A stretch of DNA of 64,000 bases, taken from Sporosarcina sp. GTDB lineage: Bacteria; Bacillota; Bacilli; Bacillales_A; Planococcaceae. The notes below the pieces were generated by a model. It saw only the letters and a list, made by a program, of their open reading frames with translations, did no database searches and was not told the origin of the DNA. Positions 47,315-62,217 of this stretch are shown piece by piece. The position numbers and the translations under genes are program-made. Position 1 is the first letter of the stretch; each line of letters begins with the position of its first letter. Where the stretch lies: positions 62,001-126,000 of the forward strand of contig JAPFCR010000035.1 in the NCBI GenBank assembly GCA_026169375.1, read 5' to 3'.

Positions 47315-49321
47315 TCATTCCATCCACGCATTCATCCGGCGATATAAAGAGGTTGAAGGAGTTGATCCTCCTCTTTCGATATTACTCAAATAAGAGGTTG
47401 AAATATCTAATTCATGAGAAACATTTTGTAAAGTAAGGCCTAATTTCAATCTTTTTCTTCTAAATTCCTCCCCTATGTCTGCATCAATTTTATCTGTTTG
47501 TGCTAATAAAGGGGGCTTTTTTTGATTGCCACTCGATTTTTTTCTTTCTAATGGTTGATAGTATTTCCTAATATCATCAGGCGGCGCAATAATAATTGTT
47601 GCGTCTTGCCAAATTCTGAACCACCCTCTTTTCAGCATATTGTCTTCATCCCATTGATCGTATTGCCAGAAGGTAATGACGCCTTCTTCTAGTAAAACAT
47701 CTAATGCTTTTTCTAGTCGCTCGCGAATGCGCGACGGAGTTTGGGATTGACGCTGAACATCAATCTTTTCTAATAATGTACTTATTTTATGAGGTTGAAG
47801 ATAACTTCCTTTGCGCGCTTGTGTTCTCCAGCGCCAACTTAAATAGCGAATTAGTTTTTTCTCCCATTTTCTTTGATACGGGTTATACTCAATCGCTTGT
47901 TTAGGTAATAACTTCACTTGTCTACCCGAACCACTTAAAAAAGGTTCAAACACTTTTCCCATAGTAAAGACAAACCGTTCTGGTATTTCAGCATCGTTGA
48001 ATCGATATTCATTCCCTTTTAAATCTTTAAAATGAAGCGCTCGTCCCTTCATTGATTTTTTCATTCGTTTTCCTTTTTCGTATACAACAACATCTTCCAT
48101 TTCAATCCATAAATCTTGCAAAATTGACAACGCTTTCAAAACTTGTTGTCGTTGTTTTGTTTCATATCCTCCTCTTCTACCACTCCCTCCTAACTTTGGC
48201 TTTAAACCACGAAGGTTTAATAAATCATCAAATTGAATTTCTATACCATCTTGAATCATTGTCGATTTCGCCAAATAAATATGGCATAACGCATCGAAAA
48301 TATCTACATCTAATTCCGACAATATTTCAACTTGTTGCCAAATTTGGCTTAGCCATGTAGACGTTAATCTACTTTCCTCATCCAATTTTAATTGCACAGT
48401 TCCTTTTAACAAATTATTAACGATTTTCGCTTTAGGCCATTGATACTCATCGTATCGCTTAAACACTTGATTCGACAGCGTTTCGATGATAGATTGATAA
48501 ATCACATTGCTCATCACGAGTAAATTTCGGTTTTTCACAAGCGATTCAAACTGTTGTTGTTTTTCAGTTTGTCCACTCATTCCTAACAAGTCCGCGATAT
48601 ATGCGATGGATCCTTTTTCTACATCCGACGTGATTATCACCTCAGAAATCCACTTTTCTATATAAGAATTGACAAGGCGTGTAAATTCATTCATAAAACG
48701 GTCATTTTCAGAGAAGTTTTTGTTCATTTTTTGAAAGAAAAGTTGATTTAATTCCTTTTGATTGATTGTACGTAAATGTTCATATTCAAATACTTGAATC
48801 ATTTCATCAATCACATAGTGGGATAAATATTTTTTAAACCAATCATTAAATTTTTCCCAAGCTTTTTCATCAAGTATTCGTGTGTTTTGATGTAACATCG
48901 ATTCGTATTTATGAAATAATTTATTTAATAAATCCCATTTTAATTTGGTCTTATTTTTCAATATAGGGACTAAGTAATTTTCATACTCACTAAAGAATTT
49001 AGCGACCATAAACTCTGTAATCCTTAGTAACATTTCGTTTCTCGCTCGCATCCTTAGTTTATAAAACAATTCAACATTCTCTTCGTAAGCATGCTGCCAG
49101 ACAATAAATGTTTCAGAATTAACCCTTGGAAAAACATGATTATGATTTACTTTTTCCTTTAATTTTTTTGTTGGAAATTCAATTAAATATTGATAGTCAA
49201 AACGATTTGGCTGCCGATCATATAGTATAATAACTTGGAAATCAGTAATTTTATCGACTAATATTTCTAAGTTGTTTTCTTTACTACTAACCTCATTTGA
49301 AAGGATGCCATAATCTGTCAA
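47315..49321 (-). CDS. Large protein with C-terminal XRE helix-turn-helix and Rep-like core
   Basis: A protein of about 668 residues. The C-terminal 55 residues form a Cro/C1-type HTH (FRRKRLKLGLTLQNVSHELD, then ISTSYLSNIERGG). The middle holds a basic, winged-helix-like region (KQRQQVLKALSILQDLWIEM; NPYQRKWEKKLIRYLSWRWR; SYLQPHKISTLLEKI) reminiscent of plasmid replication initiators. The N-terminal half is helical with no recognised domain. I favour the TTG at 49319-49321 (seven bases after GGGGG) over the ATG two codons upstream. It could be a plasmid or phage remnant, or a chromosomal DNA-binding regulator. Confidence 0.6.
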   Translation of the reverse strand: MTDYGILSNEVSSKENNLEILVDKITDFQVIILYDRQPNRFDYQYLIEFPTKKLKEKVNHNHVFPRVNSETFIVWQHAYEENVELFYKLRMRARNEMLLRITEFMVAKFFSEYENYLVPILKNKTKLKWDLLNKLFHKYESMLHQNTRILDEKAWEKFNDWFKKYLSHYVIDEMIQVFEYEHLRTINQKELNQLFFQKMNKNFSENDRFMNEFTRLVNSYIEKWISEVIITSDVEKGSIAYIADLLGMSGQTEKQQQFESLVKNRNLLVMSNVIYQSIIETLSNQVFKRYDEYQWPKAKIVNNLLKGTVQLKLDEESRLTSTWLSQIWQQVEILSELDVDIFDALCHIYLAKSTMIQDGIEIQFDDLLNLRGLKPKLGGSGRRGGYETKQRQQVLKALSILQDLWIEMEDVVVYEKGKRMKKSMKGRALHFKDLKGNEYRFNDAEIPERFVFTMGKVFEPFLSGSGRQVKLLPKQAIEYNPYQRKWEKKLIRYLSWRWRTQARKGSYLQPHKISTLLEKIDVQRQSQTPSRIRERLEKALDVLLEEGVITFWQYDQWDEDNMLKRGWFRIWQDATIIIAPPDDIRKYYQPLERKKSSGNQKKPPLLAQTDKIDADIGEEFRRKRLKLGLTLQNVSHELDISTSYLSNIERGGSTPSTSLYRRMNAWME

Positions 49322-49421
49322 ACTCATTCCCCCTTAATACTCTATTGAAAATATCGTAACATACGATATAGAATTTTACCATGCCACACTTCACTCAATT
49401 GCAAATATTTAAACACTTCAC

Positions 49422-49491: not shown

Positions 49492-50931
49492 TTATCTGAT
49501 TTCCTCTTTTTCTAGCGGAGGAGGAACGGCTGATTTACTCAATAACTCATCGTCTTTATGAATCCCTGGGATTGTGCGTGGAATCAGCGGTAAAAATAAC
49601 AACGCAATGACGATTAACCCCATAATTACCCAAGACGTCTTCGCCATTGCTTGCACGTTATTTCCACTTACACTGAAAATATTAAAGGCAACGAGTGCAA
49701 AGGAAGCCCCCATTCTTTGTGCAATGTTTTCAATGACTGTATTTGTAAATGTAACGACGTTAATTCGCTCTGTTGCGGCTTTAGATACAACAATTCCTTT
49801 AATCGCAGGTGTTTGAAATCCAGATCCGATTCCAATCAAACTCATCGATATAAATAAATAAGAAAATGTCGTTTCTATATGCACAAATGATAACATAATA
49901 ATCCCGATTGAAAACATTGAAATTCCTGTCCCAATAATGACGCGAGCTGAAAAATACTTTAAAACTCTTCCACTAAAATAAGCAGCTAAAGACGTCCCTA
50001 AGAAAATCGCCATCTGCAGAAACCCAACAACAGTTGCAGATTTTCCTTGAACGTTTTGCACAAAGAAAGTGAGTAAATACATGACTCCTGAATAGCCCAA
50101 AAAGATAAATACAGCAATCGTTGTAGGCACCCAAAAGTTTCGGTTACCAACATACTCAATATCTAATAGTGGTTCGGCTTTCTTTTTCTCTACAAATACC
50201 AATGAAATTAAAGCGATGATGAAAATAATAAGCGAAGGAATCCACATCCCGGATTGCACACCAAACCCATTAATAAATGTCGGGATTGTCAATAAGCCGA
50301 CTAACAATACGATGACAAAAAACAAGCCTGCTACATCTAGTTTTTGTCGCTTCTCTATTTTAACTTGCGGCACAAAAGAAAATAAAAGAATTGCAATCAC
50401 ACCGAGTATTGAAGTAAATACAAAACTTCCTTGCCAGTTAATCGTATCAACAATTGAACCGCTAATTACTGGTCCAAATAAGGCGCCGATTGTTGAAAAC
50501 GCCATAAACGTTCCAATTCCTTTTCCTCTTTGCGTACCTTTCATAAACTTTCCTGCATAGGCAACGCCAGAAGGAGCGATTGCAGCACCCGAAATCCCTT
50601 TAAAAAATAAACCGAGTACCAATACCCAAAATGAAAAAGATAAGGCAACTAATAGTGAACCAATCACCATAAAAATACCACCGATAATAATGACTAGTTT
50701 TAATCCAAAAGAATCACCAATCCAACCTAGTAATGGTTGAAAACCCGTTAATCCGACCGCTAATCCTAATTGCATCCAAACTGCATAACCTGGTGTCAAA
50801 TTAAATTCTTGTAACATATGCGGATAAGCCGGTAGATGTGTTGCTAAACTTAACATAATAAAAAAGGCACCAAAGCAAATAAAATAAAAACCCCGGTTCA
50901 CCGAATTGTCTTCAATTTCAACTGTGTTCAT
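49492..50931 (-). CDS. DHA2-like MFS transporter (about 14 TM)
   Basis: A 479-residue major facilitator protein with about 14 hydrophobic segments. Loop GWIGDSFGLKLVIIIGG and the motif-C-like ISGAAIAPSGVAYAGKFM place it among DHA2-type drug/aromatic-compound transporters. It lies immediately downstream of the acyl-CoA operon on the same strand, separated by a hairpin at 50997-51070. A role in uptake of the operon's substrate is possible but unproven. Confidence 0.85.
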   Translation of the reverse strand: MNTVEIEDNSVNRGFYFICFGAFFIMLSLATHLPAYPHMLQEFNLTPGYAVWMQLGLAVGLTGFQPLLGWIGDSFGLKLVIIIGGIFMVIGSLLVALSFSFWVLVLGLFFKGISGAAIAPSGVAYAGKFMKGTQRGKGIGTFMAFSTIGALFGPVISGSIVDTINWQGSFVFTSILGVIAILLFSFVPQVKIEKRQKLDVAGLFFVIVLLVGLLTIPTFINGFGVQSGMWIPSLIIFIIALISLVFVEKKKAEPLLDIEYVGNRNFWVPTTIAVFIFLGYSGVMYLLTFFVQNVQGKSATVVGFLQMAIFLGTSLAAYFSGRVLKYFSARVIIGTGISMFSIGIIMLSFVHIETTFSYLFISMSLIGIGSGFQTPAIKGIVVSKAATERINVVTFTNTVIENIAQRMGASFALVAFNIFSVSGNNVQAMAKTSWVIMGLIVIALLFLPLIPRTIPGIHKDDELLSKSAVPPPLEKEEIR

Positions 50932-51084: not shown

Positions 51085-52575
51085 TTATTCATTAACATTC
51101 ATCACACAAGCTTTTTCATATGTGTAATCTAAAATGGAGTCCGATCCATACCCACTTTCTTTCACACCGCTAAATGGTAAGTCTACACCCACCATTCCAT
51201 ACGTATTTACCCAGACATTTCCTGCTTCGAGTCGATCCACTAAACGATGTGCTTTTCCTAAATCTTTTGTCCACACACCCGCTGCGAGGCCGAAGTTCGT
51301 ATCATTCGCAATTTGAATCGCTTCCTCTTCTGTCTCAAATGGAATCGCTACAGCGACAGGACCAAAAACTTCTTCCTTGCAAATTTTCTGATCCATATTC
51401 TCAGCTTTTATCAATGTCGGCTCTACCCAATAACCATTCGCGTATTCCGGCTGTTCCGGTAACAACACTTTCCCGCCGTATTTACCGCCAAAGACAATTT
51501 CACCACCATCTTGAGTGGTTTCATCAATATAAGAACAAACTCGCTTATATTGTGCTTCATTCGCAATTGGGCCCATTGTATTCGTCGTATTTAATGTATC
51601 TCCAAACTTCACGTACGCTTTATCAGTCATATATTGCTTTACACGTTCAGTCACTTCGTCATAGATGGAACGCTGAATAAGAATTCTTGAACCCGCAACG
51701 CAAATTTGTCCTGCGTTACGTGTATAAATCCCATTCATGACACCTTGCACTGCTTGCTCAATATCGGCATCTGCAAAGACAATATTTGGAGACTTTCCGC
51801 CTAATTCAAATACCAAGGACTTCGGTGAATGTGCTGTTGCTTTTGTAATGATTTCAGCAGTCGCTTTTGAGCCTGTTAAACTCACTTTATTCACTTCTTT
51901 ATGGCCAACTAAATAATTACCAATGTCTTTTCCTGTACCAGAAATGACATTGAGCACACCCGGAGGCAATACTTGTGCTAGCAACTCACCATATCGTAAT
52001 GAGCCAACCGCAGCATGTTCTGATGGTTTAATAATGACTGTGTTTCCACCCGCTAGGGCATAAGCAGCTTTCATCGTAAATGTGAAGAGCGGCGCATTCC
52101 AAGGTAAAATACCAACGACAACACCGTACGGTTTTCGCATTGTAAAACCAAAGTTTCCACCGCCTATTTGAACCGTTCTACCTTGCCCACCTAAAAGGGC
52201 AGCTGCACCTGCTGCATCGTACCAAATTTGCTTTAAGACGACTGCCAAATAACGATACTCGTCGATCACCCAACCATTGTTTTTCGTTTCTAATGTTAAG
52301 AGTTCTTCGGCGTGTTCTGAAATCATATCTCCAATTTCACGCAAATAATCGCCACGAGTGCGGGCGGGTAAACTAGACCAGCCTGCAAATGCTTTTCGTG
52401 CAGACTGAATCACTTGTTCCGCATCTTCTTCTTTACTTAATGGGATTTTCGCCCAAGCTTCACCAGTGGCAGGATTAATACTACGAGCCATTTCTCCTTC
52501 TTGTGGTTTACAAGTTTCTCCGTTTACAACATTAAAGTATTCTTTTAGTTGACATGACTCATTAACTTTTTGCAT
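51085..52575 (-). CDS. Aldehyde dehydrogenase
   Basis: A 496-residue NAD(P)-dependent aldehyde dehydrogenase: oxyanion Asn in ILPWNAPLF, catalytic Glu in VFELGGKSPN and Cys in NAGQICVAGSR. It is the last gene of the acyl-CoA operon, with its start (ATG 52573-52575, after GGAGG) overlapping the upstream acyl-CoA dehydrogenase gene by 31 bp. I infer that it oxidises an aldehyde released by the retro-aldolase step encoded in the same operon. Substrate unknown. Confidence 0.93.
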   Translation of the reverse strand: MQKVNESCQLKEYFNVVNGETCKPQEGEMARSINPATGEAWAKIPLSKEEDAEQVIQSARKAFAGWSSLPARTRGDYLREIGDMISEHAEELLTLETKNNGWVIDEYRYLAVVLKQIWYDAAGAAALLGGQGRTVQIGGGNFGFTMRKPYGVVVGILPWNAPLFTFTMKAAYALAGGNTVIIKPSEHAAVGSLRYGELLAQVLPPGVLNVISGTGKDIGNYLVGHKEVNKVSLTGSKATAEIITKATAHSPKSLVFELGGKSPNIVFADADIEQAVQGVMNGIYTRNAGQICVAGSRILIQRSIYDEVTERVKQYMTDKAYVKFGDTLNTTNTMGPIANEAQYKRVCSYIDETTQDGGEIVFGGKYGGKVLLPEQPEYANGYWVEPTLIKAENMDQKICKEEVFGPVAVAIPFETEEEAIQIANDTNFGLAAGVWTKDLGKAHRLVDRLEAGNVWVNTYGMVGVDLPFSGVKESGYGSDSILDYTYEKACVMNVNE

Positions 52576-53726
52576 GCCTTTCCTCCTTCCTGTAACCAAC
52601 CTAATGAGTCGGCTACTTGTTCTTGATAATAAGCGGTAGAACCTAAATATTGCTGGTAATAATGTGCACGTTTTAAATATAAATGACAGTCAATTTCTTC
52701 CGTAAAACCAATCCCACCATGTATTTGAATATTATGCGAAGCGGCCTCTATAAATTTTTCAGTCGCCGTAAAGCGAGCGCTATAGATGGTTGCTTCTCGG
52801 TCGGCTTCTTCCGTTTCCAATACCCAATTGGCATAATAACTTAAAGAGCGAGCAATTTCTAAGTTCACTTTCATATCAACAATGTTATGTTTAATCGCTT
52901 GGAAACGACCAATCGGCTGTCCAAACTGTTCTCGAATCTTTGCATATTCTGTTGCCATATTCACAACACTCTCCATCGCGCCTACTAAATAAGAACTGAG
53001 TGCAGCATTGAAATACAATAATCCTTCTTGAAAAGTGCCCCATCCCTTATTTAATTCCCCTAAAACTTGCCCTTCTTTTATTTCCAGTTGGTTAAACGAA
53101 ATTTGTACTACATGTTTTGCTTCATCAAAAGAGGCTTGCTTTTCGATTGTCAGCTCATCTGCAGCATCGATTAGTACTAAAGATAAACCATCTTCTTGCT
53201 CTTCTAGTTTTGTTCGCACTAATATTAAAAACGTATCCGCTAACTCTCCTTCAGGTACTAGCGTTTTTGTTCCGTTTAATACGTACCCATTCTCTTTGCT
53301 TTCCAAAGAGCATTGAATGCCTTGCGGTGAAAAGTCGTGGAACGGCTCCAACACAGCCAGAGAAATAGATTTTTCTCCTGTCGCTATTTTAGATAAATAC
53401 TTCTCTTTTTGTGTTTTCGTCCCATATTTTTTAATGAGTGGAACAGCAAGTGCAGCTGTCTCTAAAAACAAGCCAGGGATAAGTGAACGGCCTAATTCTT
53501 CAAATGTCGGAACAAGATCTAGTGCTTCTAAATCTAATCCCCCGTATTCTTCTGGAATATTAATCGCCGTACATCCAAGTTCTGCGAGTGTATTATATAA
53601 TTTCTTTAAATTTTCTGGTTGATGATCAATCATTTCGCGCGCAATCTTCGTACCTCCGAAACCATCTAACATTTTCCGAATATGTCCCCGAAACATCTCT
53701 TGCTCTTCTGTCAATGAAAAGTCCAT
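52545..53726 (-). CDS. Acyl-CoA dehydrogenase, second subunit type (FadE28/ChsE1-like)
   Basis: A 393-residue acyl-CoA dehydrogenase fold protein (MDFSLTEEQEMFRGHIRKML; AIKHNIVDMKVNLEIARSLS; IQIHGGIGFTEEIDCHLYLK). It lacks the MCAD-type YEGT catalytic motif and resembles the auxiliary subunit of heteromeric steroid-type dehydrogenases. It follows the other ACAD gene after a 107-bp gap holding a perfect hairpin. I infer an alpha2beta2 complex of the two products, as in ChsE1-ChsE2. Confidence 0.88.
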   Translation of the reverse strand: MDFSLTEEQEMFRGHIRKMLDGFGGTKIAREMIDHQPENLKKLYNTLAELGCTAINIPEEYGGLDLEALDLVPTFEELGRSLIPGLFLETAALAVPLIKKYGTKTQKEKYLSKIATGEKSISLAVLEPFHDFSPQGIQCSLESKENGYVLNGTKTLVPEGELADTFLILVRTKLEEQEDGLSLVLIDAADELTIEKQASFDEAKHVVQISFNQLEIKEGQVLGELNKGWGTFQEGLLYFNAALSSYLVGAMESVVNMATEYAKIREQFGQPIGRFQAIKHNIVDMKVNLEIARSLSYYANWVLETEEADREATIYSARFTATEKFIEAASHNIQIHGGIGFTEEIDCHLYLKRAHYYQQYLGSTAYYQEQVADSLGWLQEGGKACKKLMSHVN

Positions 53727-53776
53727 TTTCTTCCCTCCACTTTCTACTCTATATTTCCACTACTTAAACCATGCAG

Positions 53777-53813
53777 TTTATTCAGTAGGAGCTTCAATCT
53801 CCTACTGAATAAA
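53777..53813 (-). other. Perfect intercistronic hairpin between two acyl-CoA dehydrogenase genes
   Basis: Arms of 15 bp (TTTATTCAGTAGGAG and CTCCTACTGAATAAA) with a seven-base loop, no T tract on either side. It lies inside the operon, so mRNA processing, stabilisation or partial termination is more likely than full termination. Confidence 0.8.
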
Positions 53814-53833
53814 GAATAGACAAAATGTTTAAT

Positions 53834-55030
53834 TTAACGTCCCATATCTTTCGGTAATCCTAGCACTCTCTCACCAATTGTATTGCGCTGAACTTCACTC
53901 GTTCCCCCGCCAATTGTTTGCCCAAATGAAGCTAAAAATAAATTTTGCCATTTTGTATCCTGCGGGGCACTTTCTTTCCATAAAACTCCTTGATGTCCTT
54001 GGATTTCCAGTGCAAAAGCAGACAGTTCCTTCGTTAGCTCACTCACAACTAACTTATCAATCGAGCTTTCTGGGCCAGGATGTCCATTTTTAATGGTTGT
54101 TGTTAAATTTCGGTAATAATTTAATAACGATCCGCGAACACGAGCGTAGAAGCTCGCTAACTTTTGTCTGATTTCAGGTTTTTTAATTAACGGTTGACCG
54201 TTTATTTTATACTGTTGTGTTAATTCGACGGTTTCATTAAACTGTTGCTCTAAACTAAATAATTCAGCACCAATTCCTGTTCTTTCATGTAACATTAAAG
54301 CGATTAGGACACGCCATCCATTATCTACTTCGCCTACAATATCTGAGTCATGGGCGGTCGCGTCTGTTAAATACACTTCATTAAAATCTTTTCGTCCATC
54401 CATTTGAACAATCGGTAAAGTCTCTACTCCCGGTTGATCCATATCTACTAAAAATACAGTAATGCCGCGATGCTTCTTCTCAGGATGTGTACTCGTTCTC
54501 GTGAGGATGAAACATTTATCTGCCACATGACCAAAACTAGTCCATACTTTTTGTCCGGTAATTTTCCAGTTTTCTCCGTCCTTCAACGCACGCGTTTTAA
54601 TCGCTGTTAAATCCGATCCTGCATTTGGCTCAGAATACCCTTGGCACCAAACTTCCTCACCTGTTAATATTTTCTTTAAATATTTTTCTTTTTGCTCTTC
54701 TGTACCGATATCAATTAACGTAGGGCCAACCATGTGAATCCCAATATAGTTAATGAGAGGAGGTGCTTTTACTTTTACCATTTCTTGATGGTAAATAATT
54801 TCTTCCATCAAAGTCGCATCTCGTCCACCATATTTTTTAGGCCATGCGATTGCGGCCCATCCGCCTTCATAGAGTTGCCTTTGCCAGTCTCTTAAAAAAC
54901 GAGAGTACTCTTCTAAGTCTTCTGGCAAGTCTCTTTTCCCTTTAAGCCATCCTTCTGGAAGATTGTTTTCTAACCACGTACGCAGTTCTTTTCTAAATTT
55001 CTCTTCTTTTTTCGTGAAAGAAAAATCCAT
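53834..55030 (-). CDS. Acyl-CoA dehydrogenase (FadE29/ChsE2-like)
   Basis: A 398-residue FAD-dependent acyl-CoA dehydrogenase. FAD-binding elements QGYSEPNAGSDLTAIKTRAL and ITGQKVWTSFGHVADKCFIL are clear; the C-terminus is IGGGTSEVQRNTIGERVLGL, with Gly where the MCAD-type catalytic Glu stands, and a candidate alternative acid in LMLHERTGIGAEL. This pattern fits the actinobacterial FadE29-type subunit. It probably pairs with the product of 52545-53726 to desaturate a branched or cyclic acyl-CoA. Confidence 0.9.
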   Translation of the reverse strand: MDFSFTKKEEKFRKELRTWLENNLPEGWLKGKRDLPEDLEEYSRFLRDWQRQLYEGGWAAIAWPKKYGGRDATLMEEIIYHQEMVKVKAPPLINYIGIHMVGPTLIDIGTEEQKEKYLKKILTGEEVWCQGYSEPNAGSDLTAIKTRALKDGENWKITGQKVWTSFGHVADKCFILTRTSTHPEKKHRGITVFLVDMDQPGVETLPIVQMDGRKDFNEVYLTDATAHDSDIVGEVDNGWRVLIALMLHERTGIGAELFSLEQQFNETVELTQQYKINGQPLIKKPEIRQKLASFYARVRGSLLNYYRNLTTTIKNGHPGPESSIDKLVVSELTKELSAFALEIQGHQGVLWKESAPQDTKWQNLFLASFGQTIGGGTSEVQRNTIGERVLGLPKDMGR

Positions 55031-55061
55031 TCATCTTCATCCCTTTCTACGTCTATTGCTA

Positions 55062-55484
55062 TCAGTCGTTAATCGGCGTCCATTGTGGAAGTGCTCTTTC
55101 ATCTGTAATATCTTCCCAAATCATTTGGACAGGCATGCCAATTTGAATATCATTTATGTCACAATTTAAGACATTACACATAATTTTAACTTCAGGTACT
55201 TTCTCTAATTGCGCTTGTGCAATAATCGTTGGAAGATCATCTTGGAAACCTGGTAAAAATGGACGGTAACTAATAATATAAGAATAAATTTGCGCTTTCA
55301 CATCATTACCCAAGTTTTCCCAGACTACATTTTCACTTCCACAACGCGCACAACTAGGTCCTGGGGGATGTGCGTATGTGTTACAATCATTGCATTTTTG
55401 TAGTGCAAGCCGATGCTCGTCTGCTGCGTTCCAATAAGCTTTATTATCTTGATCTTTTAATGGAATTGGTTTTTGATAAGTCAT
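55062..55484 (-). CDS. Zn-ribbon/OB-fold DUF35 protein (ChsH2 C-terminal domain-like)
   Basis: A 140-residue protein with an N-terminal helix, a zinc ribbon (LQKCNDCNTYAHPPGPSCAR then CGSE) and a C-terminal OB fold. DUF35 proteins bind thiolase-superfamily partners; the DUF35 domain of ChsH2 is needed for activity of the Ltp2 retro-aldolase in steroid degraders. It ends 32 bases before the ACAD gene and starts ten bases after the thiolase-like gene, so it is almost certainly its partner. Confidence 0.9.
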   Translation of the reverse strand: MTYQKPIPLKDQDNKAYWNAADEHRLALQKCNDCNTYAHPPGPSCARCGSENVVWENLGNDVKAQIYSYIISYRPFLPGFQDDLPTIIAQAQLEKVPEVKIMCNVLNCDINDIQIGMPVQMIWEDITDERALPQWTPIND

Positions 55485-55494
55485 CTTAGCCCTC

Positions 55495-56655
55495 CTAGTT
55501 TCTTAAAATCATTGCACCTGCTAAATCCGGTCCACTCCAGCCAGTACAAATCCCAATCTCACAAGCTTCAACTTGGCGATTCGTATCTTTATATTCATGA
55601 CGAAGTTGTCTAACAATTTCAATTGTGTTATTCATCCCGTGCGTATAACCTTCTGCCAACATGCCACCTGCTGTATTCGTCGGGAGTTGCCCACCTATAT
55701 TTAGATTTCCTTCTGCAACAAAATCGCCTACCTCACCACGCGGGGCAAGTCCATAAGCCTCTAATTGGCGAAGCACGACCCAACTAAAACAGTCATAAAT
55801 CGCCGCAACTTGAACATCTTCTGGTTTTATACCAGCATTTTGATAGAGTTCTTTTCCAACATAATCAGCAGCGACTTGGTCCACATCATTCCAATAATGG
55901 GCGTGTGGATGACATTGCCTTAAAGACATCCCCATAATATAAACTGGTTTTGACTGACAATCTTTTGCACGTTCAGCTGACGTAACAATAATCGCATTTC
56001 CTTCATCGAGTTCTAAACAAGAATCGTGAATATTAAATGGATAACTAATATCTGGCGTTTCAAGATAACTTTCCATCGTTAAAGGTTTCCCATGTAAAAA
56101 TGCTTTCGGGTTACGCTGGGCATGCTCATAAAAGCTTAAACAAACATGACCTAAATGTTCTTTCGTAATCTCTCTTTCATGCATATGTCGTGTAGCGAAC
56201 ATGCCAAACCATTGGGATGGACTCGCTGAACCATACGGAATAATGAAACTCCCACCAGGAAGTGCTGTTTGTAGCATGTCGGGATCGTATCCTCGTCCAA
56301 CTCGCTGACCAGAACTTCCATTCATAGAACGGTAAATTAAAACCGTATTTAACATACCTGCTTCAATTAAGGCGATCGCATCACCGATTAACATTTCCGT
56401 ACTACTTCCGCCGCCTAAAATGTCTTTTACATACTTAGGCCTTACACCTAAATACGTTGCCAGCTGATGCGAAGTACATGAATCGTTTTCGTTATAACTC
56501 ATAACGCCATCAATGTCTGTCGCTTCTAATCCCGCATCTTTAAGCGCTGCTCTTGAAGCATCTAATGCCAAATGAAGGGGTGTTGTCCCTGAATTTCTTG
56601 ACCGTTCACTTTCCCCAACCCCGACGATGGCATAGCGGTTATTGATCTTCCCCAT
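55495..56655 (-). CDS. Thiolase-superfamily protein, Ltp2-like probable retro-aldolase
   Basis: A 386-residue SCP-x/thiolase-fold protein, the same length as mycobacterial Ltp2 (Rv3540c). At the place of the usual nucleophilic cysteine it reads KDILGGGSSTEMLIGDA, with no Cys, so normal thiolysis is unlikely. Other family elements: VAAIYDCFSWVVLRQLE, LNIGGQLPTNTAGGMLAEG and GICTGWSGPDLAG. Ltp2 cleaves a tertiary beta-hydroxyacyl-CoA to a ketone plus propionyl-CoA with the DUF35 domain. I infer the same chemistry here on an unknown substrate. Confidence 0.85.
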   Translation of the reverse strand: MGKINNRYAIVGVGESERSRNSGTTPLHLALDASRAALKDAGLEATDIDGVMSYNENDSCTSHQLATYLGVRPKYVKDILGGGSSTEMLIGDAIALIEAGMLNTVLIYRSMNGSSGQRVGRGYDPDMLQTALPGGSFIIPYGSASPSQWFGMFATRHMHEREITKEHLGHVCLSFYEHAQRNPKAFLHGKPLTMESYLETPDISYPFNIHDSCLELDEGNAIIVTSAERAKDCQSKPVYIMGMSLRQCHPHAHYWNDVDQVAADYVGKELYQNAGIKPEDVQVAAIYDCFSWVVLRQLEAYGLAPRGEVGDFVAEGNLNIGGQLPTNTAGGMLAEGYTHGMNNTIEIVRQLRHEYKDTNRQVEACEIGICTGWSGPDLAGAMILRN

Positions 56656-56686
56656 AAATGATTCCTCCTATTTCCCTTATTTCCGT

Positions 56687-57112
56687 TTACGCTAACTCTA
56701 AAGTCGCACTTCCCGATCCAACGATTTCCCCTGATTGTTTCTCTGCCGTTAACGTTAAAGCAAGGTAATTCTTTTCATTTTCTTCATATTTTCGTTCTAC
56801 AATTCCTGAGCATTTTATTTCATCGCCTGGAAATGTCATCTTTCCAAAACGCATTTTGAAATTAACGACTTTCGCTTGTTGGGTTGCGATGTTCATGACA
56901 TACTCGCCTAAAAACCCCATCACGAGCATCCCATGCGCAATAACCCCATCCATTCCTATCTTCTGAGCAAATGCATCATCTAAATGGAGCGGGTTAAAAT
57001 CTCCTGAAGCACCTGCATATTGTGCAAGTTGCACTTTTGTAATGGGCGGCTTTACCATCGGCTCTAATTTTTGATTCGTAGTTAATTTTGTTAAAGTCAT
57101 TTCTTTAATCAC
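56687..57112 (-). CDS. MaoC-like enoyl-CoA hydratase (catalytic hotdog, ChsH1-like)
   Basis: A hotdog-fold protein of about 141 residues with the R-hydratase catalytic pair in YAGASGDFNPLHLDD (Asp38, His43) followed by DGVIAHGMLVMGFLGE. It hydrates a 2-enoyl-CoA. I chose the GTG at 57110-57112, seven bases after GGAGG. It should pair with the non-catalytic hotdog protein 57136-57579, as ChsH1 does with the MaoC part of ChsH2. Confidence 0.88.
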   Translation of the reverse strand: MIKEMTLTKLTTNQKLEPMVKPPITKVQLAQYAGASGDFNPLHLDDAFAQKIGMDGVIAHGMLVMGFLGEYVMNIATQQAKVVNFKMRFGKMTFPGDEIKCSGIVERKYEENEKNYLALTLTAEKQSGEIVGSGSATLELA

Positions 57113-57135
57113 TACGCTTCCTCCTAACAACTTTA

Positions 57136-57579
57136 CTAGTCTACTAATGGTCGATAAATAATATTCATCCGACTCACACAGACCAATTCGCCTTCTTCGT
57201 CTTTCATTTCTGTATCTAGTACTAAAAACTGCATCTTCCCACTTTTTCCTTCACGATCATATAAATCGCTTACTTTCATTTGACACAGTAAGCGGTCTCC
57301 CGGTCGAATTGGTTGATAATAAATAAATTCTTGCTCGCCGTGAAGCATTCGCCTGTGATCGAGTTCTAAAGGAAGTTCCACATCTCCTTCATTCATTGCT
57401 ACTGGAAATGTCGGCGGAACAATCACTCCTTCATAAGCTGATGCTTCTGCATATTTTTCATCTTTGTACAGTAAGTTCTCGTCTCCAATTGCCGTACTAA
57501 ACTGGCGAACATGACGATTTTCTACTTCAAATATATACGGCTCACTTGTTAAACCAATTACGCTTTTATTTAAATCCAT
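57136..57579 (-). CDS. MaoC_dehydratas_N-type hotdog protein (non-catalytic partner)
   Basis: A 147-residue hotdog protein of the FAS1 dehydratase-N/MaoC_dehydrat_N type (YIFEVENRHVRQFSTAIGDE; AYEGVIVPPTFPVAM; YYQPIRPGDRLLCQMKVSDL). It lacks the Asp-x4-His catalytic pair of its neighbour, so it is probably the structural half of a hetero-hydratase. In actinobacterial ChsH2 this domain is fused to DUF35; here the two parts are separate genes in one operon. Confidence 0.85.
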   Translation of the reverse strand: MDLNKSVIGLTSEPYIFEVENRHVRQFSTAIGDENLLYKDEKYAEASAYEGVIVPPTFPVAMNEGDVELPLELDHRRMLHGEQEFIYYQPIRPGDRLLCQMKVSDLYDREGKSGKMQFLVLDTEMKDEEGELVCVSRMNIIYRPLVD

Positions 57580-57598
57580 GATGCATCCCCCCTTTCAA

Positions 57599-59749
57599 TC
57601 ATTTCGTGATAATTAATGCATCTGCTGCTGTTACACCATTTTCATAGACAATCAAAGGATTAATATCAATTTCTTTTATATCATCTCGATAGTCTTGAAC
57701 GAGTGTTGAGACTTTAAGTAACACATCAATAATGGCTTCTTGATCTACTGGCTTTTTATTTCGCACACCTTTTAATAATTCATGCCCTGTTAATTCTTCC
57801 ATCATTTTGAGCGCGTCTTCTCTTGTGATAGGCGCTACTCTAAATGACACATCTTTAAATACTTCAACAAAAACGCCACCAAGTCCAAACATAATAACCG
57901 GGCCAAATGTTGGGTCAGTTGTAACACCAACAATCACTTCAATTCCTTCAGGAAGCATCTCCTGTACTGAAACACCGTGAATATTTGCTTCCGGGCAATG
58001 TTTTTTTGCACTTTCATAAATTTCTTGAAAAGCTTTTTTAACTTCCTCATCACTTGCTATATTTAATCGAATCCCATTCACTTCTGTTTTATGCGGAATA
58101 TCAGGCGAATCGATTTTTAATACAACTGGATAGCCGATTTCATTTGCAAGTTGGACAGCTTTTTCTTCAGTATCGGCAACTCCATGCTTCGTTGTATGAA
58201 TGCCATACTCTGCTAATACTTCACTAGATTGTGATTCACTAAGTGTTCGGTTTTCAGGTAATAAATGACGAATATTTTTCGTGATCTTTACATTTTGCTT
58301 TGGCTGTGCTTTTTCCTTCTTTGCTTTCCGGTAAGCCTCACTATAATCAACAAGCTTTGCCAGTCCGCGAATTGGATTTAAATCTCCAGTAATGACAGGA
58401 ATACCATGGTCTTCTAAATACTGTGTGCCCTTTGGAATAGACATTCCTTCTAGCGGGAATGTTGTGACAAAGATAAATTTGTCAGACTCTTGACAAATCC
58501 TCACAAACTCTTGTAGTGACGGTGTATTTTCGTCCCAATTCATTGGAAATTCAGTGAAAATTATGGTATCTGTTTCAGGATCATTCGCCAATATTTTTAG
58601 TGGTTCTAAAAACAGTTCTGGGTTCGTAATTGCGGCCGCCGCTGTTAAATCAATTGGGTTTACAGCACTCGCATAATTTGGGATGTTTTTCTTAATTGCT
58701 TTTTGTATTTGCTCATTTAAAACGTGAATATTTAACCCATAAGATGCACAGCGGTCAGCTTCATTAATCCCTCTTCCACCAGAACTTGTGACAATTGCGG
58801 TATTTCTGCCTGCTGGTAATTTTCCTGATGAAAATAATTTAGAAAAGGAAATAATATCGTCATAGTCATCTGCGCGCACAATGCCAGTTTGTTTAAAAAA
58901 TCCATCATAAATATTATCTGCGCCCGCTAATGAACCTGTATGAGAAGCAGCTGCTCGACTCCCTGCACTACTGCGTCCAGATTTCATAATGACAATCGGT
59001 TTATTAATTTCTAGCGCGTAATTGGCAAGTTCCCGTAATTTTTCTGGGTTCTTCTCTCCTTCTAAATAGCCACTGGCAACTTTTGTTTTCGAATCATGTA
59101 ACATATATTCAATAACATCCGTAAAGGCGACATCGACTTCATTGCCAACGCTCACAAAATAATTAAATGTTAATCCTCGCTGGGCTGCGGCAATATAAGT
59201 TAACACACCAAATGCACCACTCTGCGTAACAAAGCCAACTTCACGCCTTTTTCCTAATGGAATATTCGTCAATCCAGGTGAAAATGTTCCCATTAACCCA
59301 TTTGTTGTATTCAATAAACCTACACAGTTCGGTCCGACAATTCGAATATTGTATTGATCTGCAATTTTTTTCAAACGATTTTGCGCTTCGATTCCTTCTG
59401 ATCCAATTTCTGAATAACCTGAAGCGAAAATAATCGCTGCTTTAACCCCATTTTTTGCACTTTCTATTAAACAATTTTCCACATGATTGATGCCTATACA
59501 TAAAATGACTAAATCAACTTCTTTTGGCACATCTTCAATCGTTTTATAACAAGTCAAACCAGCAATTTTTTTAGATGTTGGATTAATTGGATAAATATCT
59601 CCTTCAAACCCTCCGTCTAATAATGCTTTTAGTTGTAAATAACCAATTTTATTCGTATTTTCTGAGGCACCATAAACTGCAATCGTACGTGGATGGAATA
59701 AACGATTTAACGCTAAATTCGAAAAACGCATTTCATTCATAATTTTCAT
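57599..59749 (-). CDS. ADP-forming acyl-CoA synthetase (fused alpha-beta)
   Basis: A 716-residue NDP-forming acyl-CoA synthetase: CoA-binding Rossmann domain (HPRTIAVYGASENTNKIGYL), succinyl-CoA-ligase-like domains with active-site His in AAASHTGSLAGADN, and a C-terminal ATP-grasp domain (YPVVLKIDSPDIPHKTEVNG; DPTFGPVIMFGLGGVFVEV). It activates an acid with ATP and CoA. The superfamily includes acetate, pimelate and feruloyl-CoA synthetases. ATG 59747-59749 after GAGGTG. First gene of the operon, so it likely activates the pathway's entry substrate. Confidence 0.92.
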   Translation of the reverse strand: MKIMNEMRFSNLALNRLFHPRTIAVYGASENTNKIGYLQLKALLDGGFEGDIYPINPTSKKIAGLTCYKTIEDVPKEVDLVILCIGINHVENCLIESAKNGVKAAIIFASGYSEIGSEGIEAQNRLKKIADQYNIRIVGPNCVGLLNTTNGLMGTFSPGLTNIPLGKRREVGFVTQSGAFGVLTYIAAAQRGLTFNYFVSVGNEVDVAFTDVIEYMLHDSKTKVASGYLEGEKNPEKLRELANYALEINKPIVIMKSGRSSAGSRAAASHTGSLAGADNIYDGFFKQTGIVRADDYDDIISFSKLFSSGKLPAGRNTAIVTSSGGRGINEADRCASYGLNIHVLNEQIQKAIKKNIPNYASAVNPIDLTAAAAITNPELFLEPLKILANDPETDTIIFTEFPMNWDENTPSLQEFVRICQESDKFIFVTTFPLEGMSIPKGTQYLEDHGIPVITGDLNPIRGLAKLVDYSEAYRKAKKEKAQPKQNVKITKNIRHLLPENRTLSESQSSEVLAEYGIHTTKHGVADTEEKAVQLANEIGYPVVLKIDSPDIPHKTEVNGIRLNIASDEEVKKAFQEIYESAKKHCPEANIHGVSVQEMLPEGIEVIVGVTTDPTFGPVIMFGLGGVFVEVFKDVSFRVAPITREDALKMMEELTGHELLKGVRNKKPVDQEAIIDVLLKVSTLVQDYRDDIKEIDINPLIVYENGVTAADALIITK

Positions 59750-59804: not shown

Positions 59805-59860
59805 CGATTTTTTCTACTAGAATTTCTTTTGTTGTTTAAGTTATTAATCTTATTAGATAG

Positions 59861-59898
59861 AAAAAAATCCTAGACATACGTAAGAACGTTTGCTAGGA
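59861..59898 (-). terminator. Terminator upstream of the acyl-CoA operon
   Basis: On the minus strand TCCTAG-CA-A-ACGT, loop TCTT, ACGT-A-TG-T-CTAGGA then TTTTTTT. It lies about 110 bp before the first operon gene on the same strand and does not follow any recognisable gene. It is either a stray terminator or part of an attenuating leader. The rest of the 59750-60045 gap shows no gene. Confidence 0.65.
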
Positions 59899-60045
59899 AT
59901 GGCTTCAAAAGATTTTATTTTTTTAAGCAATAAACTTAACCCCGACTTTCTAACAAGATAACCTCGACAAAGATGAAAGATAAACGCTTTTACTAAAAAG
60001 ACGGTTTTGAAATGATTTATCCTCCATGTATTTTCTTTATAATCA

Positions 60046-61468: not shown

Positions 61469-62217
61469 TTGAAAAAAGAAATATCATTTGGACTTTCACT
61501 CGTTCCACTTATTACATTAATCGGTGCGGCCATGCTATCGAGTTTTTATTGGAAAGCTGGTATGCATATCCCACTACTGATCGGCGTGATTAGTGCGGCT
61601 GTGATTGCAAACTTTAGTGGTTGGTCCTGGGATGATATCCAAAAAATGCTTGTCAACGGGGTTTCACGAGCATTACCAGCTATTTTTATAATGGGTTTTC
61701 AATTGAATCAGGGATTGAAGCTGTTGATTCTCTTTTAAAGCACGGTGGACTCGTTTCCATGCTTCGGACAATTGGCTTACTCATCATTGCCACTGCACTT
61801 GGTGGCATTTTGGAAGAAACAGGTTCTTTTGAAGTGTTAACGAGAAGTATGATGAAAAAAGTTCAATCAACAGGGGTGCTCATTAGCTCTACAATCGCTT
61901 CAACATTTATCATTGCATTCGCAAGTGGCGCACAATTTTTAGCGATTATTTTACCGGCACGAACATTTGTAGAAAAGTATAAGTCGATGAACATTGATAC
62001 AAAAAATCTTTCTCGTTGTGTAGAAGCTGCAGGGACCGTTGGCATTAACTTAGTCCCGTGGAGTGTTCCTGTTGTTTTTGTCGTTGGGACACTAGGGGTT
62101 AGCTTTGCAGAATTTGTGCCGTATGCATTCTTTATCTTTCTCGTTCCGCTTATGAATATACTATTTGGCTATACTAGATGGACCATTACGAAAAAACAGT
62201 ATTCTTCAAAGGAGTGA
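61469..62217 (+). pseudogene. NhaC-family Na+/H+ antiporter, internally deleted and frameshifted
   Basis: The first frame (61469-61738) encodes the N-terminal part (PLITLIGAAMLSSFYWKAGM ... VSRALPAIFIMG), then shifts out of frame. The second frame resumes with FSIESGIEAVDSLLKHGG from about 61693 and continues through GGILEETGSFEVLTRSMMKK to the end at 62217. NhaC proteins are about 450-480 residues; here only about 245 remain, so roughly 170-200 central residues are deleted at the junction near 61690-61695. AAGGGGGAGG lies upstream, with no clean start codon. Non-functional as read. Confidence 0.85.

Follow-up and report, generated by a model that had tools for sequence, protein, structure and literature searches.

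A conserved six-gene module of Bacilli with a predicted role in shortening carboxylic acids by retro-aldol cleavage

We describe a block of genes on the minus strand of a 64,000-nucleotide stretch of DNA from Sporosarcina sp. (Planococcaceae; GenBank assembly GCA_026169375.1, contig JAPFCR010000035.1, positions 62,001 to 126,000), referred to throughout as the window. The block has a core of six genes, which encode two MaoC-type hotdog proteins (MaoCA and MaoCB), a thiolase-fold protein, a DUF35 protein and two acyl-CoA dehydrogenases (ACAD1 and ACAD2). It probably serves as a catabolic module in which a carboxylic acid is shortened through retro-aldol cleavage, a reaction that would replace the thiolase step of ordinary beta-oxidation. 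The prediction is built on gene content, conservation, residue patterns and the position of the thiolase-fold protein in a phylogenetic tree, from which we infer every reaction and the formation of complexes. An earlier note on this DNA had described eight tightly spaced genes, and all eight open reading frames (ORFs) are found at the coordinates it had given, on the minus strand, with Pfam/NCBIfam assignments that agree with the products it had named:

57599..59749, minus strand: ADP-forming acyl-CoA ligase with CoA-binding, Succ-CoA ligase-like and ATP-grasp domains (ORFs, Pfam/NCBIfam)
57136..57579, minus strand: MaoCA, HadA-like hotdog subunit without the catalytic His, Tyr38 being found instead (Pfam/NCBIfam, alignment)
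56687..57130, minus strand: MaoCB, HadB-like hotdog hydratase with an Asp44/His49 dyad (Pfam/NCBIfam, alignment)
55495..56655, minus strand: thiolase-fold putative retro-aldolase with Gly83 at the nucleophile position, Tyr287-Asp288-Cys289 and Tyr337 (profile match, alignment, tree)
55062..55484, minus strand: stand-alone DUF35 partner (zf-ChsH2/OB_ChsH2_C) with a Cys4 zinc finger (Pfam/NCBIfam, profile match)
53834..55030, minus strand: ACAD1, carrying Glu249 as well as the middle-domain half of the flavin adenine dinucleotide (FAD) site (alignment)
52545..53726, minus strand: ACAD2, carrying the other half of the FAD site (Arg265/Gln276/HGG336) and no Glu at either usual place (alignment)
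51085..52599, minus strand: aldehyde dehydrogenase (ALDH), overlapping ACAD2 (Pfam/NCBIfam)

The genes follow one another in the order listed, and behind the ALDH come a transporter and a putative regulator, HTH670 (see below). The first seven, from the ligase to ACAD2, are separated by gaps of 19, 5, 31, 10, 31 and 107 nt, while the ALDH overlaps ACAD2 by 55 nt, or by 31 nt if it starts at its first internal ATG. The open frame of the ligase continues to 59794, and its start at 59749 is preceded by the ribosome-binding-site-like sequence GAGAGGTGA, recognised by eye. A hairpin followed by a T-run, also found by eye on the minus strand at 59860-59900, about 110 nt before the ligase start, could be a leader attenuator or could mark where an upstream transcript ends.

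The core, i.e. MaoC, MaoC, thiolase-fold, DUF35, ACAD1 and ACAD2, is widely conserved. All six genes were found by tblastn in each of 44 named Bacillota loci, which together with the window make up the 45 Bacillota loci (or alignment rows) counted below. They share one order on one strand in 43 of the 44, the exception being Lysinibacillus odysseyi (L079), where the MaoC pair is placed behind ACAD2. The ORF caller, which sometimes picks an antisense ORF, reported all six in 42/45 loci; L067, L087 and L092 were completed by tblastn. One extra 86-aa ORF between DUF35 and ACAD1 in L095 was taken as spurious, and in Viridibacillus arvi (L066) the ADP-forming ligase and ACAD1 are both interrupted. 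The latter locus also has an AMP-forming ligase upstream of the regulator, and its module may be decaying or may contain sequencing errors. The scan of named genomes yielded 49 loci, the 44 from Bacillota (Sporosarcina, Virgibacillus, Oceanobacillus, Neobacillus, Peribacillus, Kurthia, Lysinibacillus, Planococcus, Solibacillus, Caryophanon and other genera) and five from metagenome-assembled genomes (MAGs) of other phyla; 18 further orthologous loci share genomes with the named ones and were not counted twice. In scans with the thiolase-fold protein, 49/200 genomes of the family matched at E <=1e-30, and 37 of these 49, among them the window's genome, reach an identity of at least 70%. At the class level 9/398 genomes matched at 1e-100, all from the same family, and at the phylum level 11/398 matched at 1e-40, where identity does not exceed 36% besides the window's own genome. 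The six-gene arrangement is more than chance. Among the matches listed in searches of the open-licence (CC-licensed) literature there was no report of this module in Bacilli.

The best PDB matches of the thiolase-fold protein are the steroid aldolase TcLtp2 (6ok1_A, 9.6e-71), 4u4e and CtSal (9myr_A). According to excerpts of PMC12329534, thiolases employ a nucleophilic Cys, whereas in TcLtp2 Tyr294 of the YDHF motif is the base and Tyr344 the acid, and in CtSal the catalytic residues are Tyr302 and Cys304 of YDCY, with Gln352 at the place of Tyr344. All 45 Bacillota rows have Gly83 at the position of the Cys of 6esq and 7yvy, an invariant YDC[FY] motif (27 F, 18 Y) and Tyr337 at the place of TcLtp2 Tyr344, and Cys289 is aligned with the catalytic Cys of CtSal; YDHF is the motif of TcLtp2 and L117-L120. 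The earlier note had called the protein Cys-less, and the nucleophile is indeed lost, but Cys289 is present within YDC[FY] in 45/45 rows. The thiolase-fold protein thus has both candidate acids, the Sal-type Cys and the Ltp2-type Tyr.

For the phylogenetic tree, 54 of 89 aligned rows were used (11 of the 45 Bacillota rows were kept and L115 was left out). The eleven Bacillota module rows form one fork (support 99/97), which is joined at 100/100 by a betaproteobacterial MAG (L091) and at 100/99 by MAG rows from Rokubacteria, Acidimicrobiales and Myxococcota, the next branching being weak (84/41). Five YDHF rows form a separate fork (100/100), and seven Sal-like rows a third one (100/100) that includes no Bacillota module rows. 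A wider fork unites the module group with the Ltp2 group (100/97), and all rows of the thiolase-fold aldolase type stand apart from the Cys-thiolases (100/98). The putative aldolase of the module is placed in a clade of its own, outside Ltp2, Sal and the true thiolases; a genuine thiolase was rejected because of the lost nucleophile and the position in the tree. The assignment to a retro-aldolase-type fold in the earlier note is in keeping with TcLtp2 as the best PDB match and with the failure of the protein to group with Claisen thiolases.

Distant relatives of the protein (L091 and L096-L098) keep the thiolase-DUF35 pair, and the six-gene set was not found in their available DNA; L091 also has a ligase at 37% identity and L098 has ACAD-like matches at 23% and 28%. 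No substrate could be named from these relatives. A second, paralogous six-gene set occurs in L049 and L050, which belong to the same genus as the window. It adjoins CaiB-type CoA transferases (by eye), and its aldolase, which is 37-39% identical and has the motif YDAF, is placed as the sister group of the Ltp2 clade (98/93). Four loci from two other Bacillota families (L111, L112, L113 and L116) encode proteins that share 42-44% identity with CtSal, have YDCY and Gln, and group with Sal at 100/100, which suggests that Sal-like aldolases also occur in Bacillota.

The DUF35 protein finds its best match in the DUF35 chain of the Ltp2-ChsH2 crystal (6ok1_B, 1e-21), i.e. it and the thiolase-fold protein best match two chains of one crystal (6ok1), which supports the DUF35 assignment of the earlier note. 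Its zinc finger, C31-x2-C34-x10-C45-x2-C48, is conserved in 45/45 rows.

In the ACAD pair the catalytic and cofactor-binding features are divided between the two proteins. In the alignment, Glu249 of ACAD1 corresponds to the NHER-motif Glu of 4x28_A and 6wy8_B, and the protein possesses the middle-domain motif (YSEPxAGSD, WTS) without the Arg/Gln/HGG half of the FAD site, while ACAD2 is the reverse, with the Arg/Gln/HGG half present and Glu at neither usual place. The same split of half-sites was found in the igr-like pair of Novosphingobium (L119), as well as in L118 and L124. In one catalytic-type row, L119_4271, the Arg265 column does hold an Arg, which is not followed by xQFG. Both halves (with HGG, FGG or HGA), together with a C-terminal Glu, occur in three further ACADs encoded by the window's genome. 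ACAD1 and ACAD2 thus present the pattern of an alpha2-beta2 enzyme with one catalytic Glu, from which such an assembly is predicted, and homotetrameric ACADs were rejected because of the half-site pattern. By E-value the best PDB matches of ACAD2 are ordinary ACADs (1.6e-38), with the ChsE-type chains 6wy8_A and 4x28_D at 5.8e-22 and 8e-22. The complementary half-sites accord with the proposal that these are two dissimilar ACADs of the ChsE type rather than homotetrameric ones.

The two hotdog proteins show a comparable division. The D44/H49 dyad of MaoCB is present in 42/42 aligned rows, and in MaoCA the catalytic His is replaced by Tyr38 in 41/42. Profile searches with MaoCB reported HadB chains (1.1e-27 to 2.1e-26) far ahead of chains of the ChsH1-ChsH2 complex (0.0013-0.0018), and those with MaoCA reported HadA (4e-12) ahead of the ChsH1-ChsH2 chains (3e-6). 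A fold search with the AlphaFold model of MaoCA (mean predicted local distance difference test score, pLDDT, 84.8) ranked HadA chains 1-8 and a ChsH1-ChsH2 chain 18th. The same division into catalytic and non-catalytic MaoC subunits is described for ChsH1/ChsH2 (excerpts of PMC11321319). The hydratase is accordingly predicted to be laid out like ChsH1-ChsH2, but orthology to that pair is not supported, and its sequences are nearer to HadA/HadB.

Beyond the core, the neighbouring ORFs of the related loci were annotated from representatives of recurring clusters. A ligase of one of two unrelated types is encoded in 43/45 loci: the ADP-forming one in 30/45 (counting the interrupted copy of L066) and an AMP-forming one in 14/45, with both types only in L066. 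That a single core is served by two kinds of activating enzyme is good evidence that it works on an acyl-CoA derived from a free acid. The AMP-forming ligases scored highest with generic long-chain families, none over its cut-off, so that no substrate can be named from them. An ALDH at least 50% identical to that of the window lies on the operon strand in 34/45 loci, directly behind ACAD2 or the AMP-forming ligase in 32 of them and about 5 kb further in L062 and L094. Genes for both the alpha and beta subunits of electron-transfer flavoprotein (ETF) are found in 9/45 loci. The window itself continues with two further genes:

49492..50931, minus strand: major facilitator superfamily (MFS) transporter that perhaps belongs to the same unit (Pfam/NCBIfam, locus clustering)
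47315..49327, minus strand: HTH670, a 670-aa protein with a C-terminal helix-turn-helix (HTH) domain, likely a regulator (family present in 32/45 loci)

The MFS cluster to which the window's protein belongs is represented in 23/45 loci, and any of three MFS clusters in 29/45. Regulators follow the type of ligase: all 29 loci with an unbroken ADP-forming ligase have HTH670 and none has the PucR-type GAF regulator (11/45 loci overall), while among the 14 loci with the AMP-forming ligase ten have PucR, three HTH670 (L061, L066 and L073) and one neither. The C-terminal domain of HTH670 is of the XRE type (Pfam HTH_3 in 23/25 members), and its long N-terminal part has no confident Pfam match. In fold searches with its model (mean pLDDT 78.5) the best matches are confined to the HTH domain, apart from one weak match (E 0.6, ~250 columns) to the replication initiator RepE54. 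HTH670 may perhaps represent an undescribed regulator family tied to the module. Elsewhere in the window, an ORF of a Na+/H+ antiporter family at 61759-62217 covers only positions 160-303 of the 303-position profile and is perhaps a truncated gene.

On these grounds we propose the following pathway. The ligase would make the acyl-CoA, and an ACAD1-ACAD2 heterotetramer would convert it to the 2-enoyl-CoA, passing electrons to ETF. A MaoCA-MaoCB heterodimer would then add water, with MaoCB as the catalytic subunit and MaoCA holding a bulky or long tail. The complex of the thiolase-fold and DUF35 proteins would split the resulting 3-hydroxyacyl-CoA, with Tyr287 as the base and Cys289 and/or Tyr337 as the acid, into acetyl-CoA (propionyl-CoA if the substrate is alpha-methylated) and a carbonyl compound. 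Where the latter is an aldehyde, the ALDH would oxidise it to the shortened acid, and the MFS protein would import the acid or export the product. In favour of this pathway, Gly at the nucleophile position, YDC[FY] and Tyr337 match the catalytic positions of TcLtp2 and CtSal, the dyad is found in MaoCB only, and the ACAD half-sites are complementary. The separation from the Cys-thiolases, the matches to two chains of one crystal, and the ligase, ALDH and ETF genes also count in its favour. Inside the core, no gene was recognised as a 3-hydroxyacyl-CoA dehydrogenase.

Several observations weigh against this pathway or parts of it. Both candidate acids are present, and the catalytic one cannot be selected from the sequence. 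HadA/HadB is a biosynthetic pair, and hydratases resembling it make the direction of the pathway less certain. An ALDH of the kind described was not found in 11/45 loci (one of which, L078, is a 7.6-kb contig), so either an aldehyde is perhaps not formed in every case, or the enzyme is encoded elsewhere. Genes for short-chain dehydrogenases/reductases, which could oxidise a 3-hydroxyacyl-CoA, occur in 8/45 loci, outside the core. Finally, 33 promoter-like sites against a shuffle mean of 40.6, and 11 terminator-like sites against 9.1, are no excess over shuffled sequence, so the scan gives no help in defining the transcript.

Of the known systems, the igr-type module of actinobacteria (ChsE1-ChsE2/ChsH1-ChsH2/Ltp2; also ORF40-44 of Comamonas testosteroni, excerpts of PMC12502768) likewise combines in one cluster a heteromeric ACAD pair, a MaoC pair with one dead subunit and a DUF35-bound thiolase-fold aldolase. 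The signatures of the split FAD site with one catalytic Glu are shared as well, and the second catalytic Tyr (TcLtp2 Tyr344) is kept as Tyr337. However, ChsH2, a MaoC-DUF35 fusion, is here split into two genes, the hydratases are HadA/HadB-like, and the aldolase has YDC[FY] instead of YDHF and falls outside the Ltp2 clade; moreover, the operon of Bacilli usually includes a ligase and an ALDH, and in the window no P450 lies beside it. The one-to-one correspondence with igr proposed earlier is not supported: the ACAD pair, the DUF35 protein and the thiolase fold agree with it, but the hydratases, the ChsH2 fusion, the aldolase motif and the clade do not. A plasmid of Rhodococcus rhodochrous (L117) encodes a YDHF aldolase 68% identical to TcLtp2 together with separate MaoC, MaoC and DUF35 genes, so a split ChsH2 also occurs outside Bacilli. 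In a single species, Vibrio alfacsensis, plasmids (L118 and L121) encode an igr-like set near ETF genes as well as a Sal/Shy-like pair.

CtSal-CtShy, which acts on the C5 side chain of bile acids (excerpts of PMC12329534 and PMC11321319), shares the Tyr-Asp-Cys motif, the DUF35 partner and the expected aldehyde product. It differs in having Gln352 at the place of Tyr337 and, in Shy, a C3H1 instead of a C4 zinc finger, while the Bacilli have two MaoC subunits and an aldolase outside the Sal clade. Atf1-ChsH4 of Mycolicibacterium also combines a stand-alone DUF35 protein with a Sal-like aldolase; in the excerpted text of PMC10398937, to whose description the comparison is limited, its operon is presented with a reductase and a regulator and without a hydratase pair. 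The (3R)-hydroxyacyl-ACP dehydratase HadA-HadB provides the closest solved relatives of MaoCA and MaoCB, which are here found within a CoA-ligase/aldolase operon and presumably hydrate an enoyl-CoA. Because defining features of igr and of Sal were in each case looked for in the module and not found, it is classified as a member of neither.

To narrow down the substrate, we compared 37 module-bearing with 22 module-free genomes for the presence of eight families; the 22 come from genera that also hold module-bearing species, while some of the 37 have no module-free counterpart genus. None of the eight families is enriched in the module-bearing genomes, including isocitrate lyase (33/37 vs 20/22 over cut-off, one of the 20, G007, with only a weak paralogue match). 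The window's genome, which is 90% complete, has none of the six ring families (KshA_C, LigB, Ring_hydroxyl_A, intradiol dioxygenase, PaaA_PaaC and BoxB). This weakens complete degradation of steroids or aromatics by the routes tested, no search having been aimed at HsaC or KstD, nor at routes through type I extradiol enzymes, gentisate or homogentisate, and leaves branched, cyclic or isoprenoid acids, or harvesting of a side chain with export of the remainder. The paired subunits predicted to be non-catalytic point to a bulky or long acid, and the ALDH points to a secondary 3-hydroxyl in the substrate, which would yield an aldehyde.

As possible substrates we tentatively put forward isoprenoid acids and branched or cyclic aliphatic ones (methylated at the alpha or beta position, or of the cyclohexyl-acetic type), whose 3-hydroxy intermediate is not normally oxidisable or thiolysable. 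Retro-aldol cleavage skips the 3-ketoacyl step, and HadA/HadB-like hydratases would suit long chains, on which HadAB acts. None of the ring-cleavage families tested is associated with the module, and the module is carried by many genera of Bacilli. However, nothing positive points to any such acid, and a beta-methyl substrate would give a ketone, with no need for an ALDH.

It is unlikely that the module removes steroid or bile-acid side chains in the manner of igr or Sal/Shy, clipping C3 or C5 while the rings are degraded elsewhere or exported via the MFS protein. The nearest characterised relatives of the aldolase, the DUF35 protein and ACAD1 are steroid side-chain enzymes, the ALDH fits the aldehyde product of the Sal type, and a single P450 match (63 bits) is present in the window's genome. 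That match is on another contig; the window's own contig has no P450, and no CYP125 or steroid-catabolic family was found among the annotated genes of the window, in line with the earlier observation that CYP125 and steroid-ring genes are missing here. Apart from the clade of the aldolase and the HadA/HadB-like hydratases, the co-occurrence data also speak against steroids: P450 is not enriched (16/37 vs 12/22), and KshA_C is marginal (5/37 vs 1/22 over cut-off, 5/37 vs 3/22 at E <=0.001), all its matches covering part of the length and scoring 22-31 bits. Among the five module-bearing genomes with these marginal KshA_C (Rieske) matches are the four that have no isocitrate lyase match, G116, G152, G157 and G190.

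Shortening of an aryl-propanoid, in which a cinnamate- or phenylpropionate-type acid would give acetyl-CoA and an aryl aldehyde that is oxidised to the aryl acid, appears decidedly improbable. Retro-aldol cleavage of a 3-hydroxy-3-aryl-propanoyl-CoA is favourable, and an ALDH is at hand for the aldehyde that this chemistry yields, but none of the five aromatic families, all missing from the window's genome, is enriched: LigB (0/37 vs 2/22), Ring_hydroxyl_A (6/37 vs 4/22), intradiol dioxygenase (6/37 vs 7/22), PaaA_PaaC (4/37 vs 6/22) and BoxB (0/37 vs 0/22, in a search where no control genome exceeded the cut-off either). A biosynthetic use, with aldol condensation, dehydration and reduction building a branched acid, would agree with the likeness of the hydratases to HadA/HadB but is very improbable, because the ligase (43/45), ALDH (34/45) and ETF (9/45) genes point to oxidation.

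Returning to the proposed catabolic retro-aldol module, the thiolase-fold retro-aldolases characterised in the literature consulted (excerpts of PMC12329534, PMC11321319, PMC12502768 and PMC10398937) act on steroid side chains and come from Actinobacteria and Proteobacteria. We regard the chances as evenly balanced that the Bacilli possess a non-steroid route in which a fixed six-gene core, with swappable cassettes of ligase and regulator, combines a third type of aldolase, having the Sal-type Cys and the Ltp2-type Tyr, with a HadA/HadB-type hydratase recruited from long-chain metabolism. Such clusters call for caution, as homology alone is insufficient for labelling them as steroid genes. If the proposal is true, a conserved, self-contained version of the system in easily grown Bacilli would widen retro-aldolase chemistry beyond steroids and provide an active site in which nature has united the two known catalytic solutions, and these bacteria would offer a simple host for finding the substrate.

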